Below, one piece after another: positions 3,446 to 31,785 of a stretch of DNA of 64,000 nucleotides (its first letter is position 1; each line of letters opens with the position of its first letter). The translations under genes were made by a program, and so were the position numbers. This DNA is from Caenorhabditis elegans (Eukaryota; Nematoda; Chromadorea; Rhabditida; Rhabditidae): assembly GCF_000002985.6 (NCBI RefSeq), contig NC_003283.11:17671501-17735500 (forward strand). Reading direction: 5' to 3'. The notes under the pieces were generated by a model, which had not been told where the DNA came from, did not search any database, and saw only the letters and a list, made by a program, of their open reading frames with translations.

Positions 3446-5153
3446 TTATGTCCGAAATGAAAAAATCTTCGATGAATGACTAGAAGTTCCATGGATCCTT
3501 GAATGATATCTCTTTCCACAGACAAACTTCAGAATTGCTCTCCGATAAATCTTAATGTAATACATAGGCACTAAGGCATCCATAAATGGTTGAGTAGTGA
3601 TGAGGGGTATGATAATAGTTTCAATTGGTCCCATATCAATTCTCAAAATCGGGAAACATAGTAGAATTCCGGCCGGGATGAACATTAGGAACACTGGGAA
3701 TAGTGTTTGGGCGACTAGAGATCGGAAGAGTTGGCGTTGCATATCCAAGGTTCTTTGTGATAGATTTTGAGTTTGATCGTCAGAGTGGAGAAGCTCATTG
3801 CGGAGTTTGAGCCAACAATATATGATAATGGAGAAGCCGATTATCTGAAACAACTAATTAATTAGGTAGAAAATTCCACGCTGATCATTTCTTCAGTTGC
3901 AAGGTTTTCGATATTGCTTCCCGTGTAGGAGATAGACACGTTTGAAATACGACTGCGAGATAGCGTGGGGAAGGGGGAGAGACGCAGACGGCGCGCACAC
4001 TCTCCCCTCCCCTCTCACTCTCTCGCCGCCTAACTTCAAACAGTTCTATCTCTGCAATGGGTGGAGCTATCAAAAAACTTCCAACTGACGAATTATTCCA
4101 AATTTTTCGGAGATCACAATTTTGTGGTTCAAAATTCGGAAACTACGTTCTAACTCACAATAGTGGTGCAATGATTTATCAGGAACAAAAAATCCGGAAA
4201 ACTTGCAAAGTCCTTTCCTGTGTCTGGGTCAGTTCTCTGGAAATTAGTATTGATTGAATTTGTGAAAAAGTTCAATGTCTTACATAAAATAGAGATGAAG
4301 CGTAGGTGAAATCCAAACGAGATAGGTTGAAGTTGGTGAGCATTGTATCTCTGGAAAAGTTCACAGATTTTCAGTTGAAACTGTATTGGTAGCTCTAACA
4401 GTTAAGGAAATAAACACAATGAAAGATGGAGAAGAGAGAGATAGTGTGGAAGGGGGAGAGACGTAGACGGGTCAGCACTCTTCCCTTCCTCCACGCTATC
4501 TCGCCGCTCAACTTCAAACTCGCGTAGTTCCACGCTGGAAAAAGCTATCAAAAAACTTCCAACTGACGAAAAACTCAAAATGTTATGCTGAATCCATTGG
4601 CTTACCTTATATGTTCATCAATAATTTCATTTTCGCTTGCCATGTAAACTCCAAGTACCAGCCACTCTGCACTGACAAATACAAATATTAAAATGAGAAT
4701 AGTGACATATGGAAAGGAAAATAATTTTGACATGTTTGGCTTGCAAACTGCCAAATATCGATATAAAAAGTGGAAAACCAGTAGGAGCATGATCATACTG
4801 TAGCACGTGCAGTTTAAAGCTGAAAACAAGAAAATAAATTTTTTGAATTCCCCAAAAAAAATTTTATTTTGCGACTTACCAATATACCAAAATGATACAT
4901 GCCTAGGGAGTCCAAGCACATTTCTACTGAATATAACATATGCACCATTGTAAAAATGAAGCATTGGCTGATTTGTACCATCGATGAATGCAAAAATAAT
5001 GCCGAAAATTGAAAAAATGAGCATCAAGTGCCTATAGTTGCACATATTTCTGGGAGTTTTTGTAATAATTAGGCAAATTAAAATGGAATTTGAAATAAAT
5101 GCCAAACTGGCGTTGATGTAACTGGTTATAATTGAAAATGTGACGTTGAGCAT
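3446..5153 (-). CDS. Str-superfamily serpentine chemoreceptor (7TM GPCR), intact
   Basis: Minus-strand exons 5153-4880, 4819-4606, 4350-4284, 4236-4159 and 3844-3446 give 343 aa. It is a close paralogue of the receptor at 200-1943: exon lengths 274, 214, 67 and 78 nt are identical and so are the phases. It shares FSIFGIIFAFIDGTNQPML in TM2, an HFLYRYLAV motif in TM3 and PFMDALVPMYYIKIYR at TM7. The start is the ATG before LNVTFSIITSYINAS, giving a short N-terminus typical of the class. Introns 2 and 4 each hold a hairpin element. Role: candidate chemosensory receptor in ciliated neurons, inferred from the family; ligand unknown. Confidence 0.87.
3870..4115. repeat. hairpin element in intron 4 of the second Str receptor
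   Basis: Central blocks GAAGGGGGAGAGACGCAGACGG and ACTCTCCCCTCCCC. It sits at the same intron position as the copy at 700-945 in the paralogue. Confidence 0.8.
4370..4585. repeat. hairpin element in intron 2 of the second Str receptor, diverged left arm
   Basis: The right arm is typical (ATCTCGCCGCTCAACTTCAAAC, AAAAAACTTCCAACTGACG). The left arm is more decayed. Confidence 0.7.
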
Positions 5154-5194
5154 AGGAAATCTGTAAAAATAGACTTTAAAATTAAGTTTAGCGC

Positions 5195-5515
5195 AAAATT
5201 TCGAACATTTCGCCAGTTTAAAGTTTTTTGATATCTCATACCGTTCAGGAGATAAACGCGTTTAAAGTGAGGGAAGTTCTGCGGTGAGAGAGTGTGGAGA
5301 GAGGGGAGAGCGCGCCTGCGTCTCTCCCCCTCCTACACTATTTAGCCTTCTCGACGGTAAGAGATATCAGAAAATTTTCAAATACGAAAATGATCAGCGC
5401 AAACTTTCGTCCAAAACTCATCGTCCAAATTTCAAAGGTGTTTATCTCTTAAACTGTAAAAGATATCGAGAAGCTTTCAACTAGAGAAATATTCAGAAGG
5501 AAGTTTTGCGTTTAA
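5195..5515. repeat. hairpin element with a duplicated right arm
   Basis: A full palindrome reaches about 5415. A second right arm (TATCTCTTAAACTG, AGATATCGAGAAGC, GAAATATTCAG) then follows. Confidence 0.75.
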
Positions 5516-8025: not shown

Positions 8026-8737
8026 TAAACATGTCAAAACTTGAAGCATTTTTAAAACCATTGAGCTCACGTTTGCAGAGAAAACATGCTGCAAACTTTC
8101 AACCTGTCAGTTTCTGATTATACCTATGCCGTATCGATCTTCTATGTGAGTTTATGAGTATTTCAAACTTAAACTAATAAGTGCCAAATTCAGAGAAAAG
8201 ATCCAAAAACTGGCGTGGAGCAGGCAAGTCTCCCAGATTTTCTATTTCTAGCAAACTTAGATGGAATTATTGTAGGTCTAACGAGAAATTTTCGGTTCAA
8301 AACATTATTTTTTCACACCATTGGTTTTTTCATAATTGGATTTTGCTGGCTGAAACTTCAGCGGGTCTTCCTTCAAAAATCGCATAGTTTCGCGAATTTC
8401 CAGTCGAGAAGAACCATGGAAATGCAGCATCAACTATTCCGCGTCCTAGTTTTTCAGACTATTTTCCCAATTTTTCTGCTTTTCTTCCCTGCCGGGTGCC
8501 TTCTAGGCTTTCCAGTTTTGAAATTTGAGCCAGGTCCAGTGGAATCCATAATTTTGTCGCTTATGGCCACTCAGCCAGTCATGGATTCCCTAGTACCTAT
8601 GTATTTTATAAGAGACTACCGAAATGCAATTAGGAAGGTTTTTGTAAAGGTTACAGTACCTGAACTATCAGTTACAACGCCGGGAAATCGAGTTTTTCCA
8701 ATATAAATTTTATTTCTATGCATTTCTCCATTTTCAC

Positions 8738-20146: not shown

Positions 20147-20469
20147 AATTTTTTTTTGTTAGGCTTTATTTAAACCAAAAACTTGTATAAGTTAACAGTG
20201 GCAGTTGAACTTTAATAAATTAGCAAGTATAAAACTATGAAAAAAAAACATCATAAGGTCAAAAAATGTTTCTGCAAAAAAAAAAGACCACAAGTTAAGC
20301 CAAAACTGGACCTCTTAACACCACACTGTTTCTTTTTATGCTCCGAAAGAGCAAAGAGACATGAAATTTTGCATATTAATCGTATCAGGGGATTAGTTTT
20401 GTACCGAACGGTGTTAAATATTCGGAACACCGTGAAAAGTGACCTTTTGTGCAATGGACGTTGATTGGA

Positions 20470-20900
20470 GTTGCAGGAAAGCAGCTGACATTCTGGAGGA
20501 TTTGAAAAGCGGCGGACACTTGGCGGGTCTATGGTGGCGGCCGACATCTGAATGGTTTTTGGAAGTAGCCGACGTTTTAGGGGTTCTGGCAAGCAGCCGA
20601 CATTTTAAGGGTTTTCAGAAAGCATCCGACTTTTCAGTGGTTTTGAAGAGCAGCTAACATTTTAAAGTTCTTCAGTTGCAGCCAACATCTGCATGGTATT
20701 GTTAAGCAGCCGACATTTCATGGGTTCTTGCAAGCAGCCGACATTTGGAGGTCGGAGGTGGAAAACTACTCAGGAGTGTTCTTAAGGGCAGGCAACATTT
20801 GAAACTTATTCAATGTTTCAGCGCTCTTGAGACAAAACCAAGAGATCAAAAGTCCAACACTTTTAATTCGTAGTTGTGCCCGACATTTTACAGGGCTTGA
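20470..20900. repeat. GCAGCCGACATTT dispersed repeat block
   Basis: At least seven degenerate copies of a roughly 35-40 bp unit containing AGCAGCCGACATTTT and GGGTTTT. The same motif or its reverse (TGTCGGCTGC) occurs at 23425-23870, 25490-25760, 26575-27180 and 27890-28320. Confidence 0.75.
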
Positions 20901-21001
20901 CAATTTGGTTTCTGAAATCAAAAAAAAAACTAAAAATTTTTATAATTTCAAAAATATGTTTGAAAAATAGAAATTAGCATAAAATTCAACCAAAACAACA
21001 T

Positions 21002-24000
21002 TCAAGCAAGCGGAAAAGAGACATTATTCGATCGAGGAGCAATTATCGTTGTAATTTTCCGTTTCATGTCAGTTTTCGACAGTAGAAGCATCAGAGGTAG
21101 CGAGATTTCCGGGAGGTAGTTAATTATATTTAATATCACTACTACATCAACTTTGTCCATTACTTCAGTGATCCAGACTTGGGAGTTTACAATTTCAAAG
21201 AGGATGCAGATTATCTGAAAAAAACTTCAAAGCAGTTTCCTTGAATTTTTAGGAGAAATTAAATCTGACTTTCGAGAAATTTCAACTACACATCTAGCAC
21301 TGGCCCAAACGATTTAAAAAAATTAAGAAAAAAATTTGACCGCAGCGGGGGTCGAACCTTGGTCTTGTGGGTCATACCCAACCCTCTACTCCACTGAGCC
21401 ATCTGATAAACCAAAAAAAAAATTTTTTTTTTTTAAATCAAGGTTTTTCATGAATCTGTATTATTCTGAGCATAGTTTTTCAGAAGAAAAATCCAGTTTT
21501 GCTGTGAAATCCGTTTTTTTTTTGCGATTCTCTATTAAATTTTCCTAATAGTAAGTTTTGTTTAAACCCTAATTTCTTCTCTGAAAAATTGTTGTAATCG
21601 ATATTTTCCAGCACACTAATTCAAAACAACAATTTTTGACCGCTGCGGGGATTGAACCCCGGTCGTGTGGGCCATAGTCAAGCCTCTACCCAACTGAGCC
21701 ACTCATTCAAAAACGTTTGGGAAAAAACGCACGAGGATTGAATTTCACGTAGAATTTGAATTTTGAATTTATTTTTATTCAAAAATATCTGAAAACTCAC
21801 CCCATAAAACAGAATAGTGATGAAAAGCTGCACAAAAACTCTCTGTTTTCCGTTTTCCGAAGTTCTTCTGGACAGGACTTGCTGTGTCATTCTCCGAACA
21901 TGGAAATAAAGCACAATATAACAAATGATGGATCCAAACGGAAAAATGTAGAAAATCCGGTTAATGAGCATTTGGTAGCCCGGATAGCCGGTATCCACGA
22001 ATCCGATTCTTCGGATATAAATTCTCCGGAGTTCTGAGGTTTGGATAAGAATCACTGCAGCGATGGATGCCAGAAATGCACATAGGGAAACGAGGAACAG
22101 GATACGAGCTCTGAAAAATGAGATAATTGGAAACCCGCGAGATGTCCGCTGCCACTTGGAAATCGGCAGAATTTCTGTGTTTAGGAGAACTGAAATATGC
22201 CAGCACGGTGTCGGCTGCAACTCGAAATAGTGCTAAACTTTGCAATTCTGGTGGTTCAAAGCATATCAGCAAACCAAATAAAGCAAAACAAAATTTTTTG
22301 ACCGCAGTGGGGATTGAACCCGGGACCTTCTATGTCAAAGCTAAACCTCTACCCGACTGAGCCACCGGGTCAAAATAAAATTTTCGCGGAAAAATGAGCT
22401 GAAGCAAAATTTTGCGTAGAATTCAGTTTTTCAGTACCGAAAACTACCGAAAACTTGCTCTAAACCATGATTTCTTAATCCTCGTTATTGAAAACCCGAG
22501 ATATATCGGCTGCAACTCGATTTTATACTAAATTTCGCAATTCCAGGACACTAAAGCATGTCAGCTATACAAATAAAACAAAATAAAAAATTTTGACTGC
22601 AGCGAGGATTGAACCCCGGACCTTCTGTGTCATAGCTGAACCTCTACCCGACTGAGCCACAGGTCAAAATAGAATTTTCTCGGACAAATGTGCTAGAACC
22701 AAATTTTGCGCAGAATTCAAATTTCATTACAATTTTTCTTCAAAATTCACAACAAACCTATTAAAAGCGCGTCTCCAAATCTCTGGATGCATGCAACTCA
22801 ACAATTGATTAAAAATCAACGGGTACAACATTAAAATTGAAAAATATTTAATAATATAGTCAGAATAAAGCGCGAATTGCAAGAAAAACGGGGTTTCTTC
22901 GAAAATCCAAGCCATTATCAGTGATAACATGGAAGTGGAAGTCAAAATACAAGTGATAAGACACTGATAAGCAATCATTCGAAAAATCGAATGAATATTG
23001 TAATACGAGCTCCAAAATTGATAGAAAAAGGCCAAAAATATGAAAATTTCAGTGAGCTTCCAACCGTTGAGCAACAGGGTTTTCTGAGGGAAGATGAAGC
23101 TGATTTGCTCATTTTTTGGCATAAAAATTTCGAAATTTGTGAGATTTAAGAGATTTTGAAATTCCATTGGCTTGAGAATCAGGAAAACGGGCATTTTTTG
23201 TAATAAAGTGAGGAAAGTTTGGAAGACAATCTATATACAAAATATAATTAGTGGGCATTTTTTGATATTTTCAAGCGCTTAAAATGTTTTTTTTTTGGTT
23301 TTTAATGTTTTTTTTCCATTTTTCAAAGTTTGACAAAAGGCGGGAAAAATAATTAGCGGGTTTTTGGGAAAATGGCGGTTGTTTTGAATTTTTAAGAGAA
23401 GAAAATTGGAAACAAAAAGAAAATGTAGTCGCGGCAGACGTTTCACAAGTTTTTAAGTATTTGTTAAGCTGCAGCCGACAGTTTGAGGTTTACTTTCTAA
23501 ACTAGCAGCCGGCATTTTCTTGGTCAAGAAATGTAAATTATTTGAGTGCAGCGGACACTTCACGGGTCCCTAGTTAAAAGGCGATCACGGCTTGAGGTTT
23601 ACAGCGGACATCTCCCGGGTTTCTGTAACGACCAAACCGAGCAGCCGACGTTTTCCAGTTTTGGGATTTTTTAGCAGCGGAGAGTTTACAATACATTTTT
23701 CTTAGTGGCAGACACTTCACAGGATCCCTAACAAATGTAGACTTTTAACAGGTTTTCGCGAAGCTGTCAACATTAGCGATTGCTAGCAGCCGACGTTTCG
23801 CTGGTACCTATTGAATGTTGTTGGTTGCAGCGGGCATTTAAGTCCTGAGCAGCCGACACCTCTCTGTCCCCAACTAACCTTGTAAAAACCCACAAACTAA
23901 CGGGTTTTGCTGCAAAATGAATACACCGATTAAAAGCCATCAAAAATATCATTTCCGCCGAAAAATAATCTCCAAACCAATCGAACCACATAGCAACCTG

Positions 24001-24402
24001 GACCACTTCGTAATACGGACTATATAAATCTTCCACAGTAGAATCGTCAAAAAGTCTTAAAAACAACGCTAAAAACGTTGAAAATGATGTTTTAAGCAAT
24101 GATAATGTGCCAAAAATAATCAGAATTCCGTAAAATGAAGATTGAATTCTCTCTTTTGCCGGAGTGCAGTAATGAGTAATAAGGAAGCTTGTAGTGATAG
24201 TAATCCCGAGAATTTTGATGAAATTTGGAAGCATATAATATAAATGCAGGTCTGAACGTCCTGGCGTCAAGATTTCAGCACAAGTCGCGCAATTTCTGAT
24301 ACAATTATCAAATCGTAGGCAAGGCATGGTGTTCGTCTTAAATGATAGTAATAGTTTAACTTTTCCAACGTCATCTCCACTAAAAAGGAAGATTTCGGGC
24401 AT
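21002..24402 (-). CDS. nematode serpentine receptor (7TM GPCR) with two candidate first exons
   Basis: The shared exons are 22110-21801 (TM4-TM6) and 21214-21002 (TM7 and tail). Two upstream exons both encode an N-terminus plus TM1-TM3 and both end in a phase-2 donor. Exon 1a, 24402-23879, gives a 348-aa product. Exon 1b, 23194-22758, gives 319 aa. Exon 1a has a Cys-rich N-terminus (RNCATC) and DYFSAEMIFLMAFNRC at TM3. Exon 1b has KYFSILMLYPLIFNQLL at the same place. The second half (INRIFYIFPFGSIICYIVLY, SENGKQRV, INYLPEISLPLML) is clearly related to the receptor at 26006-27697. The class is not certain (srx, srv or srxa type). Exon 1a or 1b may be an orphan of a lost gene rather than an alternative exon. 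Introns hold tRNA-like elements and TGTCGGCTGC repeats. Confidence 0.7.
21337..21407 (-). repeat. tRNA-like element in receptor intron
   Basis: Reverse complement: GATGGCTCAGTGGAGTAGAGG and AAGGTTCGACCCCC. Confidence 0.72.
21637..21706 (-). repeat. tRNA-like element in receptor intron
   Basis: Reverse complement: AGTGGCTCAGTTGGGTAGAGG and GGGGTTCAATCCCC. Confidence 0.75.
22205..22735. repeat. tandem duplication of a roughly 225-bp block holding tRNA-like elements
   Basis: 22205-22430 and 22510-22735 share GGCTGCAACTCGA, AAGCATRTCAGC, a minus-strand tRNA-like element (22299-22371 and 22595-22665), then TTTTGCG(T/C)AGAATTC. They are clearly alignable along their length. Confidence 0.75.
23425..23870. 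repeat. GCAGCCGACA repeat block between the two candidate first exons
   Basis: Repeated GCAGCCGACA(G/T)TTT and GCGGACATCTC-type units separated by 30-50 bp. Confidence 0.7.
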
Positions 24403-24689
24403 TTTTTGAAATATAAAACTTTCTGCTTAAAAATCTAGACTCAAACATCACAAAAAGCTCCGAATCTCAAGTCATAATTATAGTTCACGAGTTGTGTAGA
24501 TTTTGGCAAAAAATTGAGACTTAGTGACGTGTCAGGTGCTACTGAAAAGTTGAAAAGTGTTGGGAACCCGGGAGATGTCGGCTGCAAAAAACACCTTCAA
24601 TATGTCGGGCATTGTGTATTATGAAACCCGTAAAATGTCGGCTGCGGGTACTAACAAACAGAATAAATTAACAATTTAATTTTCAAAAA

Positions 24690-25348
24690 TTAACAAATTC
24701 CAACATGAGCACACGCAGACTCCGGTGAGCTTCCAGATTTCAGAAATTGAACAATATTCGAGAAAAATGGGCTCAAGTAGTCCGTGCATTGCCTGGTAAC
24801 GTCTATTGGCAGTGGAAAGTTTGAGCAGAGTTCTGTCTGAATTGAAAAAAATTACTATTTATTTCTGTTTAAAAAAAATGTAACGAAAAATTGTTAAATG
24901 AAAAATCTTTAGCTTAAAATTTAGAGCATTTAGTTAGTTAAAAGTTTTTTGATAGCTATCTCTGTTGCGGAGATATAGAGCTTTGAAAAAGGTAAGCGAG
25001 ACAGTGTGGGCGAGGGGAGACGCAGAGACCCTCCTCCCCCTGCGTCTCCCCTCCCCTACACTCTCTCGCACCGCAAATCTAAAAACCTTCATATCTCCTT
25101 TGGCAGTAGAGCTCGACAAAAATTTTAAAACAACAGAATATTCAAAATTTAATGATCTACATTTTAGTTTTATAGCTACTTACCGATGTTTGCTCTAAAA
25201 ACTTTGGCAAATCTTCCAAGTCGGCGACCAGTGCTTGTTCAAAGAGATTTGTGCACAATGAGCAAAATAATGGAGAAGGATAGGAGTAGACTATGGGAAT
25301 TGATACAAAAATAGTGATAGTTAAGAGTAGAAACGCTGAGGGACTCAT
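24690..25348 (-). CDS. saposin B-type (SPP-like) small secreted protein
   Basis: Exons 25348-25184 and 24836-24690 encode 103 aa. The signal peptide (PSAFLLLTITIFVSIPIVYS) is followed by FCSLC. Exon 2 carries ELC, QC, then SAC and a C-terminal GIC, making six cysteines. The phase-0 intron after Cys2 matches the three saposin-like genes at 12.6-15.5 kb. The intron contains a hairpin element instead of tRNA-like copies. Secretion is expected; lipid or membrane binding is inferred from the fold. Confidence 0.8.
24918..25160. repeat. hairpin element in saposin intron
   Basis: GGCGAGGGGAGACGCAGAGACC faces CCTGCGTCTCCCCTCCCC. An isolated copy away from the 0-12 kb cluster. Confidence 0.85.
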
Positions 25349-26005
25349 TCTTGAGGCAGGAGTGGGAAAGTTAGTGATAAGGGGCTGATTTTATAGGTAA
25401 AAATGTTGAAAAACAATTGAGAAGTCATTGATAAGAAATTATATGTTTAAATGGATTTTGAAGTGAAAAACAAGAAAATATCGCAGACAATTCAAACCCG
25501 AGAGGTGTCGGCTGCAACACAAAAAATATTTGAAAACCCTTACGGAGTGGGTCGCAATATTGGAAAGATATGTTCAATCCCGAGAGACGTCGGCCGCAAC
25601 TTTAAGCCAGTAGAATGCCGGTCGCTGTTGGGAACATATGAAAGAGCAAATATTCTTGAAATCCCGTGACGTGTCGGCTGCAGCTTGAAATCAAAGTATA
25701 TAAAAACAGCGTAAGATGTTGACCGCATAAAACCCGGGAAACGTCAGCCTCAAAATTCTGCGCCATATTCCTGCCTCTTATCAGATGGGCTGCACAGTGT
25801 GGCTCAGTTGGTATTAGGTATGCTCGCGGCACAGGAGGTCAGGGGTTCGATGCCCCGAGATGGTATATAGGTTTTGTTAGGTGAGAAGTTTGAATTTTGT
25901 ACTCTCAAATAGCGAACATTGATTTATAAAGCTTATATTGCACTTCTTCACACGGAAAATGTGACACGAAAAATAAATAAAAAAAAACTTTTATTCAAAA
26001 TCACT
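25349..26005. other. intergenic, saposin gene to receptor
   Basis: Contains TGTCGGCTGC repeats (25490-25760) and a tRNA-like element (25796-25869). Confidence 0.6.
25796..25869 (+). repeat. tRNA-like element with GGTATATAGG tail
   Basis: GTGTGGCTCAGTTGGTATTAG and AGGGGTTCGATGCCCC. The tail TATATAGGTTTTG, GTGAGAAG, TTTGAATTTT matches the right half of the pair at 16920-17098. Confidence 0.75.
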
Positions 26006-27697
26006 TTAAAAACATGCAAGTCTATTCCTAAAACTTTCAGCCTTCTTCCGAAACTCCTGATTTCCAACGAGGAGCATTATTGACAAGGCCACCTCGGGTA
26101 AATAACTAAATATATTCAATAAAGTCACTAGGGAAACTTTTTTCATGACTGTATACGACCAATCTCTCGTGTTCAAAAACTCAAATGTCAAGCTTGTGAT
26201 CTGAAAAATTTCAGTTTCAGCGAGTGAAAAGAATCCTTAAGCTTACCCCATAAATCACAATTGTGACTAAAAGTTGCTCTGAAACTCCCTGCTTCCCACT
26301 TTCAGCAGTTTGTGGCGAAATTATCGATGTTTTCCGCTCCATTTTTAGTATATAATAGTAAATTGCAAAGTAGCACAAAATGGCTCCAAACGGGAAAATA
26401 TAGAAGCACCGATTGATGAGAAGTTGGCCCTTTACAGTTCCGCTGTCCACTAGTCCGATGCTTATGTAAAAGATTCGAATCATCCCGGAAACTTGGATGA
26501 GGGTAATGGCTGTTGTCAATGAAATGAGGAGGCAGATGAAGATGATTAATGGGGTGCGGAATCTGGAAAATGGGGGGATGTGAGGTGTCGGCTGCTGAGA
26601 AACTGGAGAGTATTAGGAACGATCCTGTGACCGGGGTGTATCGGTCGCTGAGACCCGGGAAATGTCTGTTGCGAGCTCAGAAATGTTTCAGAAGCCGCAA
26701 GCCTGTGAGGCATCGGCCGCACACTCTCAAAATATTAACCTGTGAGTTGTCTGCCGCTTGTTAGCACGAATCCGTCAAGGGTTCCGTCGCCGCAAGTCTG
26801 TGAGCTGTCGGTCGCATACCGTAGAACTCGAAAAAAGACTATTGCGAGCTCGTAAGGTGGCCTACCGCAACATCCAGGACACCCGACAACTCACGGTTTA
26901 CTTAAAATGTTACGACGCACGCCACAGACCCGTACAGTGTCGGCCGCATACGAGTGCACACCGGAGTAGAATCACGTCAGAGTTCCCAAACTTAGCAGCC
27001 GACACCTCATGGGTTTCAAAATTTTGTCTCCTTACAGACGAGACTTTATTGGCCTTTTAATGGGATTTTTCACTAAGCAGCCGACACCTCATCCGTTCCA
27101 CAAAGAGGCCTCATTCGCAGCGGCCGACACCTCACGGCCACCAGATATCGGAGCCGCGAACCATCGGCTGCTACCAATTACCTACCTCTTCGAAACGAAT
27201 ATATCCAAAAATTTTGCTTTCACACCACAAACCACCGCCAACCGATTAACAGCCATCACGAAAACCATGAGTTGCGAGAAATAGTCGCCGGTGAAACTGC
27301 CATACAACGAGAATTGCAGCCATATTTTCACAAAATTACCAAGTGTCGGGCTCTTCTCAGCGACAAGAGCAAAAACGTATGCTCCAAGTGATAATATACT
27401 TCGAGCAGACAAAATAGCACAAAACCAAGTGACAAGCTCCGAGAATTGGGTGGTTTTATTGGCTTTTTGAGTGTAGAAAATGTACAAAAAGTGTACGAGC
27501 ACTGAGAGGAGTTGGACTAATAGATAGAGCACTGACAGGCTTGACATATGATGGTCAGTGAGATCTGAGACCTCATCAACGGATAAGCAGCCGGGTTGAA
27601 GGCCCGGTCCGGGCTTTAATGCTTGAAGGCACCCTCCAGAGTCACCTGGCATTGGAGTTGAGATGTCTGGATCAATTCCTTTGATGAGGTACAACAT
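26006..27697 (-). CDS. nematode serpentine receptor (7TM GPCR), paralogue of the receptor at 21.0-24.4 kb
   Basis: Three minus-strand exons, 27697-27186, 26562-26247 and 26200-26006, encode 340 aa; an upstream in-frame ATG at 27787 would add 30 residues. Phases 2 and 0 are the same as in the neighbour. TM3 has DYFSQLMVFVMAVNRLAVV. The middle has LLINRCFYIFPFGAILCYF. The loop before TM6 has TAESGKQGVSEQL, and TM7 has NIFSYLPEVALSIMLL. The ECL/N-terminal region has cysteines (GGC, PGC) like exon 1a of the neighbour. Receptor class is not assigned with certainty. Intron 1 (about 620 bp) is filled with TGTCGGCTGC repeats. Confidence 0.8.
26575..27180. repeat. TGTCGGCTGC repeat block filling receptor intron 1
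   Basis: Units such as GAGGTGTCGGCTGC and CTGTGAG(C/G)TGTCGGTCGC in the left part. The right part is inverted (GCAGCCGACACCTCA), with the switch near 26900-27000. Confidence 0.75.
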
Positions 27698-28506
27698 TTT
27701 TGGGTGGTAGTAATATTGCAAAAAATTAGACTGAAGTTTGGCTGTGGCTGGATATGTAATTACAAGGTGGAGTTTTTTTCTCGGCAAAATGGCAGGTAAT
27801 TACACCCCCGGTTGAGTATTTGGCCAGTAGATAGCCTTTTGAAAGTGGTGAATTTTTTTGCTGAATAATTGAAAATATCAGCTGAAATGTGCGGGAGAAA
27901 TGCCGGCTGCTGACCAGTCAGGTGTTGCATGCTATAAACCCGGAAAAAGTCGGATGCAAGCCTGGGAAAGACAGATGCTACAATCCTGAGAAATGTCGGC
28001 TGGTAGAAATTAAAACTTGTTAGTGGTAAACACCAGCAAACACGAAATATGTCAAAGGCAAACCTGTAAGGTGTGGGCTGCCGCAAGCCTGGAGAACGTC
28101 AACTAACACCTAGAAAATGTAGCAAGCCTGAAAAAGGCCGGATGCTAACTTGTGATTTGTCGGCTGCTACGAGCCTGGAAGAAATTAGCTGCGAACCTGT
28201 AAAATGACCGATGCAACAAACTCGGAATATGTCTACTGCTAACTTAAGAAATGTCAGCCGCTAGCCTGTAAGGGGTCGGCTGCCAACCTGCAAACTGTCG
28301 GCTGCAGCAACTACCTTCACATCATATTTCTGTTGCAACATACAAAAAAACTTACGATTTTCACAAAGAATTGTCATTTTTTCAAATTTATTTTATTCAC
28401 GTGAAATCAAATATTCTCACCGTCCGTTCCACATTTACAAACCGCCCGTTTTTGATTTATTTCCGAATATTTTTCGATCGGCGTTTGTGATTATCACTCA
28501 TTTAAG
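27698..28506. other. intergenic, receptor to small gene
   Basis: Dominated by TGTCGGCTGC-type repeats (27890-28320). AT-rich before 28507. Confidence 0.6.
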
Positions 28507-28810
28507 ATGAGAATCAGTGAGTTTCAGACCTTTTTTACAGTTAAAGCTTCAAATTATCTTTTCAGAAGTATTTTTCATACTGTGTTTTATTACAAATTTG
28601 GCACTTACAACGGGTTATCCTAACACTAAATCTGCGGATAATGAAATTAGTGCTCCAGGTAGTGATACACTTTTCAGAGAATGAAAAACTTGAATTTTTA
28701 CAGAAAACACAGTTAAATGTCATCCAATTCAGCTCAATCCCCGCGCTTCAAGAAATCCCGACAGTCTGATGCAAATATTTTTATTTCTTAAAAACTCCTA
28801 CTCCAATTGA
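28507..28810 (+). CDS. possible small secreted protein, unrecognised
   Basis: Exons 28507-28516, 28566-28658 and 28704-28810 join in consistent phases to give 69 aa. A signal peptide (RIKVFFILCFITNLALTTG) precedes TVKCHPIQLNPRAS. Downstream sequence in other frames also looks protein-coding (SSELFKKNFEICQYF near 28830-28890; HVCNQEDYICNPSNYP near 29050). The true gene may therefore be longer and frameshifted, that is, a relic. No family recognised. Confidence 0.4.
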
Positions 28811-29711
28811 AATTTTTAACTGATCCTGTCAATAGTAGTGAGCTGTTCAAGAAAAACTTTGAAATCTGCCAATACTTCCTTCTGAACAAGCCCACAGAGT
28901 TTGATAGTAGAAACAATATGAATGCTGAAAAGAGTTTATTGTACATTGTTCACAGCTGAGCACTTTTTGATTTTCTTCAGTTTCAATATTTTTCTGACAA
29001 CTTTGATCAAGTCAATCAGCACAAAGACGGATAAAAAGGCAAACTCCATGTTTGCAATCAGGAAGATTACATTTGCAATCCAAGCAACTACCCTGAAAAT
29101 GTACCACTTGAGAAACTAAATCAAAATCAGCTGAGTATTCTGTGGTCTTCATGAGAATACCAAAAATAGGTTGTTTTTTTTTGGTATCGCATGGTTATGT
29201 AATACTCAGCTTTTAATCAACTAAAAATCGTTTAATCAGCCTCGATAAGCCTGTTGTAAACTCACAAATTTCCATTAATCATTTTGCAAGAACGTGCGAT
29301 CAGTCTGATTGAATATTTAGAAATAATTTAAATGAGTTTAAAACAAGCAATGCTTGATTTAACAGAAAGTTGAATGAAAGGTTCACGGAGTATTTCTAAT
29401 ATTTGAATAGAACATGAATATAATTGAATATAGAATACTGTTCGGATTGAAATAACAACTGCCTCTTCATATTGTCTCCTGCATTCCCGTGTAGATATAC
29501 ATTTGTTTACAGCCGAAACTTGCAAGTGTTTGTCGTCATCTGTTGGTTTGCAGAGCCATTAACATTAACCATCCTCAAAAATTACGGAAAATAGCAACAT
29601 AGCTCTAAATACCAAACGCCAAATCTTTCTGCACGAACACACCCTACCTAATGATGAGTACATGTCTGAGATAAAACGTATCTCGCAAAATTGCACATTT
29701 CATCTGACATA
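28811..29711. other. intergenic with possible coding relic at its left end
   Basis: 28824-29140 has short open stretches with protein-like composition in shifting frames. The rest is AT-rich. Confidence 0.45.
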
Positions 29712-31785
29712 ATGAGCTCATCTCCAGTTTTAAGCAAATCAATTTGGAACGAAAATCCGACTTTTTACATTTGGACCCGCCAACATATTTTTGGACTTTT
29801 CACGTTTTTATATCCTTTGACTTATTACGTGGTTTTGTTCAAAACTCCAAAAAATTTTGGAAGCTTGAAGTGGTTCCTGGTTTTTCATATTTTTTCGTAA
29901 GATTTATAGCTTCAAAATTGATTTTTTTTGGCGGGAAATTCAAATTTCCTTTAATTTTTGGCTGGAAAATCATATTTGCAGTCAATTTTTGGCGGAAAAT
30001 TCAAGTTTACGATCTGTTTTCTTCTCTAATTTTCACTTTTTTTCAGAATAACCTGTCAATGGCTATGCAGTTTTTTATTAGTCAACTTCTACACATTTGT
30101 CCCATCAAAAATCACTCGAATCGATGGATTATTGATTGATTTTATCGATATAAATACACTTTTCACATCAATGTACGTGGTATACTCCCTGGCTTCTTCC
30201 TCCTGTCTACTACTTTTTTGTAATCGAATTTTGAGCATTTTGAACATGTATCGGAAATCAAAAACTTGTATTCGCAGATTTTTTGAACTGATTTTGTACA
30301 TTTTCGTATTTCTATTTCCCAATATAATGTTCTATGGTTTTCAAATTCCTGACCAGTCAAGTATAAAGGAGATGACAAAACAGGTGAGTATGACGTCATA
30401 GGCTAGATTTTGGTCACAATTTTGAAAGATTGGTCAGAATGTTTCTGAAAAACCAGGAAAAAAATGTAATAACTTTGAATTTTCAAAAAAAAAACAGACT
30501 AAAAATTAATTTTTTAATTAGCAAAAATTTCTCAAGTGATGGGAATTTCGAATTTCGCCCAAAAAATTATCTGCGAATTTGGATTTCCTGACGAAATTCT
30601 CGTGAAAATTTTTTTTTTGCTGAAAATTGATTGAAAATTTGAATTTTCTAGTGAAAATTGGCTAAAAATTTGAATTTCCGGCGGAAAATTGATTGAATAT
30701 TCAAATTTTTCGCTGAAAATTTGAAATTCCCTCTGAAAATAGTACAAAATTTTTGAATTTCCCGCCAAAAATAGGCTGAATTTTTAACTTTCCGCTAAAA
30801 CTTGGATGAAAATTTTGAATTTGCTGCTGGAAATTTTATCGAATCTTCAAATTCTTTGTTAAAAATTGTTTGAAATTCTGAATTTCCCGCTGAAAATTGC
30901 TTGAACATTTGAATATTCCCAGTGGAAATTCTTGTGAAGATTGATTTTTTTGCTAAAAATTGACTAAATATTTGAATTTTCAGCTTGAAATTGTCTGAGA
31001 ATACAAGTTTTCTTGCCGAAATTTAACTAAAACTGCCAAGAAAACGAATGCAAATTCAAAAATTTAGCCTTCTCGCTGAAAAAACTGATAATAGAGCAAC
31101 TATTTGTAAAACCCGTAAAATTTCGGCTGCTGATAAGAAATAATTTTTAGGGTACCCGTGAGGTGTCTGATAAAACCCACGAGGTGTCGGCTGCTTAAAA
31201 GTTAGACAGTCATTTCAAATCCAGTGAGGTGTGGCTTGAAGCTTAAAATTGACAAAACATTTGAATTTCCCGCCACAAATGTAATTTTTGCAGATCTCCC
31301 CCTACTACCCCGACTGCATTGACAATCCAAACATAATTGTATTCATCTCCCCAGACACTGAAAAACAGAAGAAATCCCTCATATTCTACCTAATTTACCT
31401 ACTTTCCCTGGCAATAGCAAGTATTTTATCGGCTCAATTTGCCTATTTCCTGCTCTCAAAACGAATGACAAATCAGTCTGAAAAAACCAGGAAAATGCAC
31501 CAAAAATTCAATCGTCGTACCCTTTTTCAAGTATTAATCGATACTTCTTTCACTTCAATTCCATTCACTATTTCCAATATGGTTACGCTTTTTCGGTGGA
31601 GAGTTCCTGAACTCACGTATTTTGTGGATTTCACCTCGAAAAGTGGCTCAACAGCTTGTATTTTTGTGCTTTTCCTATATTACGAGCCTTATCAGAAATG
31701 GTTACTGGAGGTTTTTAGACTTAAAAGTCGCCGGAATTCAGTACGACATGTGACAACTATTGTTAATAAATCTGCTGATATTTGA
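29712..31785 (+). CDS. serpentine chemoreceptor (7TM GPCR), Str-superfamily type
   Basis: Exons 29712-29896, 30047-30383 and 31294-31785 encode 337 aa in phases 2 and 0. TM1 is followed by FKTPKNFGSLKWFLVFHIF, a srh/sri-like motif. Exon 2 has CQWLCSFLLVNFYTFVPSKI and a TM3-TM4 stretch. Exon 3 has the cytoplasmic loop RMTNQSEKTRKMHQKFNRR, then TM6 and TM7 ending in LYYEPYQKWL. It is a tandem duplicate of the gene at 35822-38323, with the same exon structure and very similar protein. Exact class (srh versus sri) is uncertain. Ligand unknown; expected in chemosensory neurons. Intron 2 (910 bp) is filled with short repeats. Confidence 0.82.
30540..31030. repeat. degenerate AAATTTGAATTTCCCGCTGAAAATTG intronic repeats
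   Basis: About 15 loose units of 25-35 bp in receptor intron 2, on the strand opposite to the TTTTCAGTCAATTTT units. Confidence 0.65.

Follow-up and report, generated by a model that had tools for sequence, protein, structure and literature searches.

Within a 64,000-nucleotide stretch of the Caenorhabditis elegans genome, called the window below (assembly GCF_000002985.6, contig NC_003283.11; contig 5, or chromosome V, positions 17671501-17735500, Roman numerals being contig numbers taken as chromosomes), we found a putative nematode seven-transmembrane (7TM) receptor gene of chemosensory type in which two intact first exons, A and B, precede a single C-terminal half, C. With the transmembrane (TM) segments numbered TM1 to TM7, the locus is composed of the following elements:

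23879..24402, minus strand: exon A, with ATG, N-terminus, predicted TM1-TM3 and phase-2 donor GTTAGT (174 codons plus 2 bases)
23195..23878, minus strand: interval between A and B, with scattered GTCGGCTGC repeats, which would contain the promoter of B (profile scan and repeat count)
22758..23194, minus strand: exon B, with ATG, N-terminus, predicted TM1-TM3 and phase-2 donor GTTTGT (145 codons plus 2 bases)
21801..22110, minus strand: shared exon with TM4, TM5 and most of TM6 (profile and homology to relatives)
21002..21214, minus strand: shared last exon with the end of TM6, TM7, C-terminus and stop (profile and homology)

A sequence-only reading of this DNA had proposed that A and B each encode an N-terminus and three TM segments, and that their phase-2 donors reach the same downstream exon in frame; both proposals agree with our analysis. 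The coordinates and open frames match, and low-confidence structure models predict three helices in A (residues 50-78, 87-119 and 129-161; mean pLDDT 54) and three in B (31-64, 69-97 and 102-135; mean pLDDT 69), while a simple hydropathy cut-off marks two strong hydrophobic segments in each. Both exons read open from the ATG to the GT donor, and the other two forward frames contain stops; on inspection, start and donor were present in each exon, and neither a stop nor a frameshift was seen. The donor contexts are ACAAG/GTTAGT for A and AATAG/GTTTGT for B (the slash marks the splice site), both in phase 2, and the acceptors read TTTTTCAG/A before 22110 and TTTTTTTCAG/A before 21214, with the stop codon TGA at 21004-21002. 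Joined in frame to C, A gives a protein of 348 amino acids (aa) and B one of 319 aa.

The same strand carries an intact paralogue, N:

26006..27697, minus strand: paralogue N, 340 aa, exons 27697-27186, 26562-26247 and 26200-26006, with the same phase-2 intron after TM3

The shared half C matches N as well as loci at V (7.59 Mb), III (12.36 Mb) and II (4.35 Mb), at each of which a relative was assembled (344 aa for III and 353 aa for V). In the C-terminal half, C is 40.7% identical both to N and to the V:7.59 Mb relative, and N-terminal halves show 19-31% identity over nine pairs involving A or B. The site of the intron after TM3 is the same in N as in A and B, which points to common descent; the III, V and II relatives have no intron across TM3-TM4 and are split instead after TM1. 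Since the intron is shared by A, B and N and absent from these relatives, the simplest reading is that the three go back to a single local ancestor. Tree and divergence did not single out either A or B as the native partner of C. Based on Pfam, searched up to E=1, A-C and B-C have no match and N has none to a chemoreceptor family, and the III relative matches Srv (PF10323) over residues 54-298 with 16.3 bits, below the cut-off of 21 bits; none of the four reaches any Pfam family at cut-off. The relatives found amount to about seven loci, only weakly related to a named family.

We then asked whether both first exons are genuine receptor coding sequence. We built a profile from N and the III, V and II relatives, leaving out A and B, and searched it against the open reading frames (ORFs) of the window. 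A came second, after the profile member N (44.0 bits, E=2.1e-12), and B third (18.0 bits, E=2.1e-4), the best ORF after these three standing at E=0.28; with a profile of III, V and II alone, the values are 1.9e-8 for A, 7.8e-8 for N and 0.03 for B (10.9 bits). Identity to the III relative is 26.8% for A, 26.8% for B and 26.5% for the N-terminal half of N. A and B are thus as far from III as the intact N is, and neither seems to evolve faster by that measure. In-frame codon scores are +0.046 for A and +0.070 for B; family genes or halves that were held out (n=5) score between +0.056 and +0.127, with a training set of five genes or halves, one of which overran its stop by two codons; the other five frames of each exon score negative, as do all 44 non-coding windows (mean -0.158, maximum -0.016), from which the background of the score was itself drawn. 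Under neutral drift by substitutions only, at 0.4 per site, 0.6% of 2000 copies stayed free of stops for A, and 0.6% of 2000 for B. Both exons look coding-like, and by homology they belong to one receptor family, as genuine though distant members. The family homology rules out an origin of A and B as chance ORFs. ORF length by itself is moderately unusual (in Markov sequences modelled on the 4.8-kb region, the longest ORF reached at least 217 aa in 5 of 1000 and at least 167 aa in 37 of 1000) and is weaker evidence than homology. The residue pair NQ in B was considered as a sign of decay and set aside, as the II relative has NQ at the same place. The divergence between A and B is too great for a ratio of nonsynonymous to synonymous substitution (dN/dS) between them. 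A fold search of the exon B model against the PDB was uninformative (75 matches at E<=10, none at E<=0.001), and among 11 Rfam matches at E<=1 none reached the gathering score of its family.

We also searched for a second TM4-TM7 half, scanning the stop-to-stop ORFs of the window of at least 25 aa with the family profiles at maximum sensitivity. The window holds three TM1-TM3 halves (N, A and B) and two TM4-TM7 halves (that of N, and C), all remaining matches having E>=0.6, which bears out the earlier statement that a single TM4-TM7 set follows A and B. Between the two exons, no ORF matched a TM4-TM7 profile up to E=5. The suggestion that the repeat block in this interval could mark a deletion is not supported: the repeat in fact spans about 10 kb, and it was rejected as a deletion scar. 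Four of the 20 strict copies of TGTCGGCTGC in the window lie in the interval; by a looser pattern, 22 of 24 copies fall between window positions 20 and 30 kb, and the first intron of N contains a part of the copies. This dispersed GTCGGCTGC-type repeat, at 20400-30000 and often with a spacing of about 28 bases, fills the introns and flanks of the receptor cluster; three copies of the looser pattern were found at V:7.588-7.5965 Mb.

Around the two start codons, an 18-base context, CAAAAAATGCCC, is near-identical at A (24396-24413) and B (23188-23205), with a 78% copy at 23252-23269, just upstream of B. A shared promoter with an E-box of the ADL type found no support, one CACCTG lying 136 bases upstream of A and none within 300 bases of B. 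Further upstream of A lies an inverted repeat with 30-base arms (24996-25069), whose weak microRNA-family matches stay far under gathering scores and which is probably an ordinary palindromic repeat. Four copies of a repeat that resembles a tRNA by eye (22258-22383, 22553-22678, 21325-21401 and 21625-21701) lie in the intron following exon B and in the one following the first shared exon; ARAGORN called none of them a tRNA. A DNA search with one copy gave at least 14 matches, 13 on contig 5 and one on contig 4; at least eight of those on contig 5 lie at 19.56-19.71 Mb, and two are near 13.2 and 14.0 kb of the window.

What we regard as the strongest new evidence comes from outside the window, where the relative at V:7.594-7.598 Mb appears to have three first exons:

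V:7594756-7598369, minus strand: locus of the relative, with three tandem first exons and a single TM2-TM7 set, its TM2 exon near 7595863 (profile scan and alignment)
V:7598369-7598118, minus strand: e1, from ATG AGC TT to AAG/GT, phase 0
V:7597379-7597128, minus strand: e2, from ATG AGC TT to AAG/GT, phase 0
V:7596322-7596077, minus strand: e3, from ATG AGC TT to AAG/GT, phase 0

All three exons are intact and carry an N-terminus and TM1. No TM4-TM7 half matched between them up to E=5, and one chance-level TM1-TM3 match (E=2.1) lies on the opposite strand between e2 and e3; a separate, complete-looking gene stands upstream of e1, at about 7600.2-7599.0 kb (TM2-TM7 by profile, first exon by eye). 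DNA identity is 75% for e1-e2, 71% for e1-e3 and 67% for e2-e3. The homology spans the exon, and pairs with e3 add stretches up to about 140-190 bases upstream; in the shared body, compared as far as 7595000, no DNA match was found. By the NG86 method, dN/dS is 0.26/0.53 (about 0.50) for e1-e2, 0.29/0.83 (about 0.35) for e1-e3 and 0.34/0.97 (about 0.35) for e2-e3. When neutral evolution was simulated to the same DNA identity (3000 runs at each of kappa 2 and kappa 4), the observed amino-acid identity of e1-e3 was never reached at either kappa, and constraint between these two exons appears clear. Identity together with freedom from stops was reached for e1-e2, e1-e3 and e2-e3 in 13, 0 and 3 runs of 3000 at kappa 2, and in 25, 0 and 6 at kappa 4. 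Judged by its predicted exons, this locus is a cleaner case of the same layout than the window gene.

Both loci thus have at least two 5' exons with start and donor (A and B; e1, e2 and e3), the phase of the donors agrees with that of the shared acceptor (phase 2 and phase 0, respectively), and in neither did the profile scan find a separate 3' body between the alternative exons. The anatomy of the sequence, the homology, the splice phase, the coding character and a second locus with the same layout are established. Across the family, three of nine first exons (A, e1 and e2) are without a following body of their own; a tenth first exon, at V:14.29 Mb, is a weak match (E=0.004), and the end of its C-terminal half was not located. 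For comparison we took two tandem clusters of Srv genes (IV:6.261-6.304 Mb and IV:5.868-5.882 Mb; best-scoring candidates only), where, for 15 of 16 N-terminal pieces, a C-terminal piece comes before the next N-terminal one, the exception being IV:5875381. The count becomes 15 of 17 if piece 5874873 (profile 30-113, labelled N-terminal by the script), which we take for an internal exon of that gene, is included. Surplus first exons therefore seem to recur in the small family studied here and to be rare in the two Srv clusters. Within IV:5871164-5875503, N-terminal piece 5875381 has no C-terminal piece and C-terminal piece 5871164 has no N-terminal one; the two could be a broken pair or reflect missed exons.

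We consider it probable that A and B are alternative first exons, with alternative promoters, of one nematode 7TM receptor gene. Each of them, starting at a separate ATG and presumably under a separate promoter, would supply an N-terminus and TM1-TM3, and the phase-2 donor of either would be spliced to the common acceptor at 22110, ahead of the constant TM4-TM7 half. In the A transcript, B would lie inside a 1.8-kb first intron and be skipped, and the B transcript would start downstream of A. A tandem duplication in the local cluster (N, A, B), either of the gene or of the first exon, is the probable origin of the arrangement. Two promoters, two mRNAs and two receptors, and any difference between them in ligand or cell, are what we infer. 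Alternative first exons are favoured because both exons are intact, coding-like, homologous and in the same splice phase, and because, in an independent relative, three first exons stand in tandem ahead of a single body. Of the two readings first drawn from the sequence, this one is better supported, by the intact homologous exons and by the V:7.59 Mb relative, and an orphaned exon is its main rival.

That rival takes two forms, which together would account for about a third of the probability. In one, which we consider unlikely, the functional gene is B-C, and a further tandem gene once lay between N and B; A would be the orphaned first exon of that gene, its TM4-TM7 exons having been deleted. 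N, A and B do stand in a row on one strand, as in a tandem array, with an intron position common to all three, and B is the nearest to the shared half; moreover, receptor pseudogenes are common in the species, the 19 largest families having about 1300 genes and about 400 pseudogenes (PMC2576165, in the part available to us). Yet A is intact, donor included, and matches the family better than B does, the lost half has left no trace in the profile scan between A and B, and surplus intact first exons are found at V:7.59 Mb as well. In the other form, which is improbable, A-C is the working gene and B a remnant first exon within the first intron of A. Such a remnant would have to have stayed open and coding-like with a usable donor, and its NQ, in place of the NR of A, N, III and V, recurs in the intact II relative, although A is indeed the better family match and aligns with the III relative up to the junction, including NRC...AKP. 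It is very improbable that the transcripts are built differently altogether, for instance with A joined to an acceptor within B, or with unrelated short transcripts: two of the ten AG sites listed between 23400 and the donor of B keep an open frame (23099 and 23009), but they are without the TTTTCAG-type acceptor found before both shared exons, and the protein would end up with over seven membrane helices or with a disrupted set.

Several observations weigh against alternative first exons. Long past constraint is compatible with a recent deletion that orphaned A, B is a remoter member of the family (18 bits without itself in the profile; E=0.03 when the profile holds only III, V and II), and the upstream regions of A and B have no clear similarity beyond the start context. 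At V:7.59 Mb, ratios obtained with YN00 are higher (0.28/0.46, about 0.60, for e1-e2; 0.38/0.77, about 0.49, for e2-e3), and neutral runs reached the amino-acid identity of e1-e2 in 89 of 3000 cases at kappa 2 and 186 at kappa 4, and that of e2-e3 in 53 and 143. Constraint on e2 is likely but weak, and less firm than that between e1 and e3. The contrast with Srv rests on small numbers, and the kinship with Srv is weak.

The window also holds other receptor pieces, with Str or Srh matches above cut-off at 4605-5261 (minus strand), 8173-8703 (plus) and 31285-31782 (plus), so that the receptor pair lies within a chemoreceptor-rich stretch. A desaturase-like ORF (FA_desaturase, 19.6 bits, cut-off 29.7) and a nearby ion-channel domain (54.6 bits) were also found.

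Beyond this gene, we give about even credence to the idea that a small nematode receptor family has repeatedly made modular receptors by duplicating a promoter and first exon before a constant C-terminal half, the modules being two of TM1-TM3 in the window gene and three of N-terminus and TM1 at V:7.59 Mb. If alternative first exons are indeed used, one signalling half would be combined with a choice of ligand-facing halves, which might vary between neurons, and a single locus would yield several receptors, another source of receptor diversity. The common TM4-TM7 half would then offer a natural test of which half sets the ligand and which the signalling.

Our literature search, of partial coverage and based on titles and the openings of abstracts, returned no report of alternative first exons or alternative splicing in nematode chemoreceptors, although WormBase may already annotate isoforms, and none on Srv pseudogenes. 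The survey of Thomas and Robertson (2008) did not analyse further 180 singletons and genes of small families of 10 or fewer (PMC2576165, in the part available), and the family studied here, with about seven loci, resembles those set aside and is a candidate member of that group. As far as the main text of that paper was available, "alternative" occurs twice and "splic" three times, none of them on alternative splicing of nematode chemoreceptors. With Srv, the Caenorhabditis 7TM chemoreceptors, the family shares a weak match of the III relative across most of its length, but that match is under the family cut-off, and A-C, B-C and N have none. The closest parallel comes from Drosophila, where, in the part of the source at hand, alternative splicing is rare too, being given for 5 of about 120 chemosensory loci; besides Gr39a, the source lists Gr23a, Gr28b, Or46a and Or69a as alternatively spliced receptor genes (PMC2204066). 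Like Gr39a, the window gene has alternative 5' exons and a shared receptor body, its transcripts being predicted ones; it differs in belonging to another receptor family and another phylum. The cut between variable and constant parts also differs, as the exons of Gr39a, according to the same portion of the source, carry TM1-TM6 and share TM7, whereas in the window gene TM1-TM3 come from A or B and TM4-TM7 are common to both, and at V:7.59 Mb only the N-terminus and TM1 would be swapped.
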